A program made the position numbers and the translations under genes. Of a stretch of DNA of 29,693 nt, positions 20,508 through 21,942 are shown one piece after another. Location of the stretch: positions 1-29,693 of the IMG/VR virus record IMGVR_UViG_3300046822_000128. One strand, written 5' to 3'. Every line of letters starts with the position of its first letter. The stretch's first letter is position 1. Under the pieces are notes generated by a model, which was not told the DNA's origin, ran no database searches, and worked only from the letters and a program-made list of their open reading frames with translations. This DNA is from a virus.

Positions 20508-20550
20508 GTGTCGCGACACAATTTGCTGATTCGCGAAACGTGTCGCGAAT
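20508..20550. repeat. Cluster of three TCGCGA palindromes after the holin
   Basis: A 12-base perfect palindrome GTGTCGCGACAC lies at 20508-20519. A second inverted repeat has arms ATTCGCGA (20529-20536) and TCGCGAAT (20543-20550) around six bases. Read on the minus strand, TCGCGACAC occurs twice as a direct repeat. The cluster fills the gap between the holin stop and the next ribosome binding site. Confidence 0.6.
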
Positions 20551-20882
20551 TAATCGGCCCTGCGGCCAGGTAGCTTGAAGTCGGTGACCCGATCAGCAAT
20601 GGAGCGGATCTTCTCCACACCCAGAAAGCCAACCCATCCGCCGACGAAGGTCGCCATGCTCTGGGGTAGCTGGAAGAACTCAAGCCCGCTGATGATCGTC
20701 AGGGCCAGGCCACCACAGATAGCGCCCTCCACGATCATCTGGCGCCGTGTGCCGCCACCGTAGGTGATTCGCAGAACAGCCATCGCGCAGGACAACGCAG
20801 CCGCATAGAGGATTGGCGAATGCTGGCTCAACCACGCAAGCGCCATCGCCCAGGTGTCTGGTTTGTCTGGCATGTTTGACAT
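20550..20882 (-). CDS. Lambda-type holin
   Basis: A 110-residue inner-membrane protein with three predicted membrane segments at about 23-41, 50-70 and 74-90, and a charged C-terminus (KIRSIADRVTDFKLPGRRAD). This is the layout of the lambda S class I holin. The start MSNMPDKPDTWAMALAW resembles lambda S, including two closely spaced Met codons that might give 110- and 107-residue forms. ATG at 20882 has a strong GGAGGA ribosome binding site. It times lysis by opening the membrane; the endolysin it would release is not in this window. Confidence 0.86.
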   Translation of the reverse strand: MSNMPDKPDTWAMALAWLSQHSPILYAAALSCAMAVLRITYGGGTRRQMIVEGAICGGLALTIISGLEFFQLPQSMATFVGGWVGFLGVEKIRSIADRVTDFKLPGRRAD

Positions 20883-20910
20883 CTCAGTTCCTCCCCGTCA
20901 GGGAGTTAGG

Positions 20911-20933
20911 AATAAAAATGGCCTGCGTAGGCC
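20911..20933 (-). terminator. Late leader terminator next to the holin
   Basis: GGCCT (20920-20924) and AGGCC (20929-20933) with a four-base loop, followed on the minus strand by ATTTTTATT. It lies about 30 bases upstream of the holin start. Confidence 0.65.
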
Positions 20934-20956
20934 TGGGCATTGCCCGAAAACAGAAA

Positions 20957-20978
20957 GGCCCCTGCGTATGCAGAGGCC
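20957..20978 (-). terminator. Middle late leader terminator
   Basis: GGCCCCTGC (20957-20965) pairs with GCAGAGGCC (20970-20978) with one mismatch and a four-base loop. The minus-strand continuation is TTTCTGTTTTC. Confidence 0.65.
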
Positions 20979-21243
20979 CTGAATAGGTGCGCTCGTCTTT
21001 CCGAGCTGTCCGCCAAAGACATTCACAACGCCGACGCCCCATTGCATCGGTCTCGATGATCCAGTCTCGCGCCACCCTGACAGCATGGTGAGGTAAGGGT
21101 GCGCGGGCTGCCGGTGTTTTGTCGTAGCACTGCACTTGCCGGCTTATCAGTGTCCAGGCCTTCCGTGAGGCCGCCCTGGCTGCGGTGATGGAGTCGGCGA
21201 CAGCAGCACTCCCAGCTCGGAGAATGGGTGTGGCTGTGCCGAA

Positions 21244-21275
21244 AACGAAAAAACCCGGCGCGATGGCCGGGTTTT
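21244..21275. terminator. First late leader terminator, bidirectional
   Basis: AAAACCCGGC (21250-21259) pairs with GCCGGGTTTT (21266-21275) over a six-base loop. On the minus strand it ends in TTTTTTCGTTTTC, and on the plus strand in TTTTCTT. It lies about 45 bases downstream of the predicted start site of the candidate late promoter, like lambda tR'. Confidence 0.88.
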
Positions 21276-21324
21276 CTTGGATCAGTGAGTAAGTTGCCGT
21301 AGGCAAAACTCTAACAGTGGCGAA

Positions 21325-21353
21325 ATCATGCCACGAGCCGCACGGGAACGCAA
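21325..21353 (-). promoter_or_regulatory. Candidate late promoter (pR'-like)
   Basis: On the minus strand TTGCGT (21348-21353), 17 bases, then CATGAT (21325-21330). It begins eight bases after the stop of the Q-position gene and is followed by three terminators and the holin. The boxes are moderate matches; the arrangement is the main support. Confidence 0.5.
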
Positions 21354-21360
21354 TAGGCCC

Positions 21361-21942
21361 TCATGCGGCCTCGCGCATTTCGTAAATTGCCGCCGCTATG
21401 GGACTCAGTGCGCGGCGGTCCAGATCCTCGCAGCACTCGAAGATCAGTTGCAGCACTCCACCCCAATCCCTCTCCCAGTTGCACGATTCCAGTCGCACGT
21501 CGTAGAACTGCCACATCCACGCCCGGAACTTCTCGGCGTTGGCGAGCGGGTCCTCGTTGGCCGACTGGCCACCTTGATGCATGTGCCGGTACCGGCGCAT
21601 CACACCCTTCACCACATACTCCAGCTTCTCGCGCTTGGCGGCCGTCATCCGGGGCGACTTGCCGACCACCATCAGGAACACGACCTCTTCGGCAGCTTCG
21701 CGGATGTCGTCGTTCTGCTCAGCGGCGTACATGAAGTCACCGAAGACGCGGATCTGCGGATGCAGCCGGGCGATTGCCGACTGGATATGCCCAGCCAGTG
21801 CCCCGTGTATCGCGTGGCTTGCCGTGGGCCCGCGCTCAGTGTTCTGCACCACCACACCCAGCTGAACTACATCAGAGGTCTGTCCGGGGGCCGGGTTGTA
21901 CTTGCAGTCATGCCACGCCTGGCGCGCTGAGTTGATCTTCAT
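21361..21942 (-). CDS. Q-position protein, putative late antiterminator
   Basis: A 193-residue protein with ATG at 21942 (ATGA overlap with NinG, AAGGGGAG upstream). The middle is basic (MTAAKREKLEYVVKGVMRRYRHMHQ near residues 98-122), and the C-terminal part is rich in Trp and acidic residues. I do not recognise a named Q family. The call is from position: last gene of the nin region, directly before a promoter-terminator leader and the holin, exactly where lambda Q lies. If right, it would load on RNA polymerase at the late promoter and let it pass the terminators. Confidence 0.65.
   Translation of the reverse strand: MKINSARQAWHDCKYNPAPGQTSDVVQLGVVVQNTERGPTASHAIHGALAGHIQSAIARLHPQIRVFGDFMYAAEQNDDIREAAEEVVFLMVVGKSPRMTAAKREKLEYVVKGVMRRYRHMHQGGQSANEDPLANAEKFRAWMWQFYDVRLESCNWERDWGGVLQLIFECCEDLDRRALSPIAAAIYEMREAA

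Follow-up and report, generated by a model that had tools for sequence, protein, structure and literature searches.

The leader that separates the gene at 21361-21942 from the holin gene is, at a probability that we put at about 0.88, a Q-type late-gene control region, and the product of that gene is its antiterminator, belonging to a family that is not annotated as Q. The window analyzed here is the whole 29,693-nt stretch of an IMG/VR virus record, which by its content comes from a Pseudomonas phage or prophage. On its minus strand, ninB and ninG are followed by the 193-aa gene, the leader and a lambda-S-type holin gene. From the +1 position at about 21318 to the holin start codon at 20882 the leader measures 437 nt, and it carries the promoter, the terminator T1, a Proteo-phage-1 RNA, the terminator T2 and a weak third hairpin, in this order. 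A sequence-only reading of this DNA had described a candidate promoter directly after a gene in the Q position, three tandem terminators in a leader of roughly 440 bases, and the logic of lambda pR'-tR'. All its coordinates are correct, and every feature that it named is present, on the minus strand. What it overlooked is the RNA that lies between the first two terminators.

Table. Features of the late-gene control region in the window (positions are those of the whole stretch)
Feature	Position	Strand	Description
Candidate Q-type antiterminator (193 aa), encoded after ninB and ninG	21361..21942	-	phrog_3373, E 4e-77; no Pfam
Late promoter	21325..21353	-	-35 TTGCGT 21353-21348; 17-bp spacer 21347-21331; -10 CATGAT 21330-21325
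Spacer element TCCCGYRCGGCT (-29..-18), candidate site for Q binding	21336..21347	-	conserved in 85 distinct modules
-10-like element TAGAGT at +6..+11, candidate sigma-dependent pause element	21308..21313	-	A2/T6 conservation
Small conserved hairpin TTGCC-TAC-GGCAA in the initial transcript	21294..21306	-	near-invariant across modules
T1 (tR'-like)	21249..21276	-	11-bp stem, -17.2 kcal/mol, z -3.8
Element recurring after terminators, with CACACCCATTCTCCGAGCTGGGAGTGCTG at its end	21190..21243	-	core in 64 loci
Proteo-phage-1 RNA (RF03044)	21106..21185	-	85.1 bits against the Rfam cut-off of 42
P0	21185-21182/21174-21171	-	pair counts
P1	21179-21175/21158-21154	-	pair counts
P2	21152-21148/21132-21128	-	pair counts
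P3	21143-21139/21114-21110	-	pair counts
T2, about 130 nt past the RNA	20956..20979	-	10-bp stem, -19.4 kcal/mol, z -5.2
Third hairpin (20933-20920), weak, with a T-run	20911..20933	-	5-bp stem, -8.3 kcal/mol, z -2.8
Lambda-S-family holin gene, first of the late genes	20550..20882	-	PF05106, E 5.6e-31

The protein was assigned to phrog_3373, which carries no functional annotation. The sequence-only reading had suggested a profile search against Q families. None of 52 family members matches PF06530 or any other Pfam Q model at E up to 1, a PDB sequence search with the family profile gave no match, and an NCBIfam search returned nothing useful for the family. With a limit of E 1, weak matches to phrog_304 (anti-termination protein Q-like) were obtained for 23 of the 52 members, the best at E 3e-4; the protein of the window is not among the 23. 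The earlier idea of a family not linked to Q by sequence holds for the Pfam models. The predicted structure of the window protein (pLDDT 79.5, pTM 0.75) is all-helical with a disordered N-terminal segment at residues 17-40, and its best viral Foldseek match is a protein annotated as antitermination Q (probability 1.00, E 5.7e-3). The fold of the Q class (lambda Q, 21Q, 82Q, AlpA) combines an exit-channel ring at the N-terminus with a C-terminal helix-turn-helix. Among the PDB matches listed for this model, AlpA ranks third by E-value and has the highest probability and TM-score. For the model of a distant subfamily, AlpA (probability 0.51) and, in second place, lambda Q (7ubn_Q, probability 0.89) are the top two of 350,542 PDB chains. 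The E-values of these Q-class PDB matches range from 0.99 to 2.5, so that none is significant, and the TM-scores are 0.3-0.5. The identification as Q is based on the weak phrog_304 matches, the predicted folds, and the presence of PF06530 Q proteins in the same slot upstream of the same RNA in other Pseudomonas prophages (L245 and L260). No description of phrog_3373 as an antiterminator was found in the literature searched; the antitermination mechanism is already known, and the family appears undescribed in this role.

The control region was compared over 109 loci that encode members of this gene family, drawn from IMG/VR, from Pseudomonas genomes and from phage records. A promoter-T1 module was found downstream of the family gene in 101 of these loci. 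It consists of TTGCGT or TTGACT, TCCCGYRCGGCT plus five bases, a -10 hexamer (mostly CATNAT or TACCNT), CCA with the +1 on the A, a -10-like hexamer and TTTTGCCTNCGGCAA; the promoter is followed by the -10-like hexamer, the small hairpin and then T1. In the window, the +1 was placed at about A21318 from sequence, and a consensus promoter scan did not list this promoter, which is too weak for it. Sequence conservation drops on both flanks of the module, and the module is kept in about 16 loci where an extra 200-600 bp, in several cases an ORF, lie between the family gene and the promoter. The spacer core served as the search key for collecting the modules and its invariance is therefore partly by construction, so only the remaining parts of the module, including the -10, the -10-like element and the hairpin outside that key, count as independent evidence. 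The spacer mostly has an SCGGCT core in families whose proteins are roughly 41-48% identical to that of the window, and other spacers are found in several subfamilies (L173-L176, L178-L182, L184). Some groups with different spacers share the early transcribed part. A spacer that differs by subfamily beside a shared early transcript would be expected if each protein had its own site and the adjoining pause element could be exchanged, and co-inheritance with the adjacent gene accounts for part of this pattern. No conserved direct repeat of the kind known from 21Q was seen by eye in the spacer.

The -10-like hexamer occurs in seven forms (TAGAGT, GAGTAT, GATAAT, TAGTAT, AAGTAT, TAGCAT, TAGGGT), and its A2 and T6 are kept in all 83 distinct sequences. 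Recognition of the -10 element by sigma depends chiefly on these two positions. Given a -10-like hexamer at +6..+11, a pause would be expected near +20/+21 (21299/21298). Directly after this candidate pause element lies the hairpin TTGCC-N3-GGCAA, whose conservation equals that of the promoter; another subfamily has the variant TTCGCC/GGCGAA.

An intrinsic terminator is present within +26..+150 in 84 of 89 distinct leaders, compared with 4 of 89 random positions. The hairpin ends at +56..+72 in these 84 leaders and is formed by 60 different sequences. The other five have no T1 directly behind the promoter and carry other sequence there, in several cases apparently an ORF. A stricter terminator scan of the window leader returned three stems, namely T1, T2 and a false one at 21338-21308, where 0.49 would be expected from shuffled sequence; it did not recover the third hairpin, and the consensus terminator scan did not list T1. 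The false stem lies inside the promoter and was rejected as a terminator. Sub-threshold Rfam matches over T1 (rnk_pseudo, Leu_leader, PsrR1) look like terminator resemblances and were rejected too. T1, the tR'-like stop, stands above chance. T2 is common to many RNA-bearing loci. The third hairpin lies immediately ahead of the ribosome-binding site of the holin gene. Relatives differ at this place: L071 and L077 carry a stronger terminator, L108 has an identical weak hairpin, and others have none. The three tandem terminators of the sequence-only reading reduce to two strong ones, T1 and T2, and a weak third hairpin, and are better seen as one tR'-like T1, a T2 linked to the RNA cassette and one weak hairpin. 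The proposed pR'-tR' logic has gained support beyond gene position from the conserved spacer and the candidate pause elements over about 100 loci.

The module and the gene family are closely linked. A pattern search of 199 Pseudomonas genomes yielded 21 module matches in 20 genomes, compared with none for the reversed pattern in the same genomes. Twenty of the 21 copies are located directly behind a phrog_3373 gene. The exceptional copy lacks a phrog_3373 gene over the 4.6 kb that precede it, is accompanied by a degraded RNA copy and looks like a prophage remnant. The phages phiPSA1 and Medea1 have ninG, the family gene and then the same module. Since the module usually adjoins the gene, part of this linkage could be plain co-inheritance. 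Overall, phrog_3373 is present in 48 of the 199 sampled Pseudomonas genomes and gave no match in a sample of other Gammaproteobacteria. Taken together, conserved cis-elements, gene-module linkage, fold matches and weak Q-like PHROG similarity point to the 21361-21942 protein as the antiterminator that the sequence-only reading had suspected.

The Proteo-phage-1 RNA was found in 57 of the 101 modules. Base pairs were counted in 62 distinct sequences. In P0 (columns 1-4 with 12-15), each of the four pairs shows double changes, and 98.4% of the cells are paired. P3, which joins GCCGG in the P2 loop to CCGGC downstream, has 99% paired cells and double changes in two pairs; its covariation support is thinner, as it hardly varies. 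The entire structure is 97.6% paired, compared with 21-41% when slid. As P0 and P3 cross other helices, the RNA forms a double pseudoknot, and covariation supports this structure. Both pseudoknotted helices are additional to the nested structure line that cmscan prints for RF03044. The folding energy is ordinary (z -0.08), so the case for the structure rests on covariation. RF03044 was detected in 51 of the 199 sampled Pseudomonas genomes at E up to 0.001, with 46 over the family cut-off; it had no match anywhere in a sample of other Gammaproteobacteria, which is not sufficient to establish its absence there. The RNA occurs with Q-position genes of at least three families (phrog_3373, phrog_3412 and PF06530) and in a few other contexts. 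In L257 and L262, copies are located among apparent head genes, outside any late leader.

The position of the RNA relative to the terminator bears on how it is made. Among 87 distinct loci, 56 have an intrinsic terminator that ends at most 60 nt before the RNA, always at a distance of 16-33 nt, compared with 4 of 214 random positions; in several other loci a tRNA gene ends just before the RNA. An RNA directly behind T1 leaves no room for a promoter outside the terminator and would be made only by polymerase that has passed T1. Independent transcription as a small RNA from its own promoter between T1 and the RNA would agree with the Rfam type of the family (Gene; sRNA) and with the wider 63-nt gap in the window, yet we consider it unlikely, as most loci with the RNA start it 16-33 nt past the terminator and the consensus scan of the window leader lists no such promoter. 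A further possibility is that the RNA is a working part of late antitermination, binding the antiterminated polymerase just after the first terminator and keeping it termination-resistant over the long late operon, and that it can serve Q families that are not related to each other. Its location between the two strong terminators would allow a role of the HK022 put type, in which an RNA suppresses downstream termination in cis by itself, and we regard this broader idea as distinctly doubtful.

Two other explanations concern the protein itself. It could be a DNA-binding activator of the late promoter, whose binding to the spacer boosts initiation while the terminators are incidental. Such an activator would agree equally well with a conserved site flanked by -35 and -10 hexamers that are both weak; however, the invariant A2 and T6 of a -10-like element in transcribed DNA, the terminators in 84 of 89 leaders (hairpin end at +56..+72) and the fold matches to Q proteins would all be left unexplained, and AlpA acts as an antiterminator rather than an activator (PMC7969949). 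This makes a role as an activator very improbable. The gene might also be no regulator at all, with an autonomous promoter, attenuation at T1 and readthrough brought about by a host factor or by a cis-acting RNA like HK022 put. The put RNA works without a phage protein (PMC9378689), and a structured RNA stands behind T1 in 57 of 101 modules. But this RNA, being downstream of T1, cannot help polymerase to pass T1, 44 of the 101 modules have no such RNA within 2.6 kb, and the module stays with the gene, so that we give a non-regulatory gene only the slimmest of chances.

On the preferred reading, that of a Q-type antiterminator, we infer the following for protein binding, the pause, loading on polymerase, readthrough and the time at which the RNA is made. 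RNA polymerase would initiate at about 21318 and pause near +20, when sigma re-binds the -10-like element at +6..+11. The 21361-21942 protein would recognize the spacer element between the -35 and the -10 and load on the paused polymerase, which would then ignore both strong terminators and the weak hairpin after them and continue into the lysis genes and the structural genes. If the protein is lacking, termination at T1 would release the majority of transcripts with a length of about 70 nt. Proteo-phage-1 would be part of the transcripts that extend beyond T1, and its synthesis from this leader is accordingly expected in the late phase and in dependence on antitermination.

The late leaders carry additional elements. 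The recurrent post-terminator element has the form CGTTTTCGGCTCCACCACACCCATTGCTCC[CG]AGCTGGGAGTGCTG with a near-palindromic core; it follows a T-rich stretch, usually a recognizable terminator, in 40 listed loci of the 64, and its role may be that of a boundary for recombination or of an RNA element. In 11 modules, tRNA genes are located within 2.6 kb behind the promoter, and they also occur in the leader of phage Marin. The late-leader tRNA genes (Asn, Met, Thr, Ser, Gly) include those at L007 3385-3621 and in L012, L014, L020, L023, L051, L094 and L103. Some Stx phages have tRNA genes between Q and stx, a comparable cargo arrangement. We regard the region that follows the promoter as a site of exchangeable cargo, which takes up non-coding RNAs such as Proteo-phage-1 and tRNAs.

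Upstream of Proteo-phage-1, the Q position is also occupied by other proteins. A second unannotated family, phrog_3412, was observed there in seven loci (L241, L244, L247, L249, L256, L263, L003), and in L244 and L256 a TTGACA promoter with CATCCTGTCATTCC is located behind its gene; phrog_3412 is probably another Q-type family. In phage Solano (L004, 1898-2437), a phrog_9068 protein is encoded upstream of Proteo-phage-1 and the holin, which makes phrog_9068 a candidate for a further Q-position family.

Two elements are required by Q proteins, a binding site within the promoter and a -10-like sequence at which a sigma-dependent pause arises (PMC6606751, PMC9371919, PMC7969949), and AlpA has the same loading requirements at the lysis genes of P. 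aeruginosa (PMC7969949). The alpB promoter is similar to the one described here in having a site, here a candidate one, between the -35 and the -10, a -10-like sequence at the transcript start (PMC7969949, PMC9371919) and a downstream intrinsic terminator; the targets, presumed in the present case, are lysis genes, and AlpA is among the best fold matches of the family models, at E-values that are not significant. The differences are the site itself (GGGACG), the place of the -10-like sequence (-1..+5 instead of +6..+11), the location on the chromosome rather than in a phage late operon, and the lack of detectable sequence similarity. With phage 21 Q (PMC6606751) the region shares a late operon and the combination of a promoter Q-binding element, here a candidate, with a -10-like element; the 21Q site consists of two direct 6-bp repeats, no conserved direct repeat was seen here, and the proteins show no detectable sequence similarity. 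The order nin - Q - promoter - terminator - holin S is that of lambda, whose Q likewise has no detectable sequence similarity to the window protein, and the present leader differs in its length and in its two strong terminators and structured RNA. The PF06530/phrog_79 Q proteins of Pseudomonas phages are a different protein family from phrog_3373 that occupies the same slot after ninB and ninG, with a promoter and a terminator before the holin, as in the order ninB - ninG - PF06530 Q - promoter - terminator - holin of phage YA3 (PMC7326022).

A family without a functional name thereby gains a specific candidate function, with its DNA site, pause element and terminator marked. The Rfam RNA RF03044 gains a context, behind the terminator in late leaders, and a fuller secondary structure. 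The candidate also adds to a picture in which antiterminators without sequence similarity share the same loading logic.
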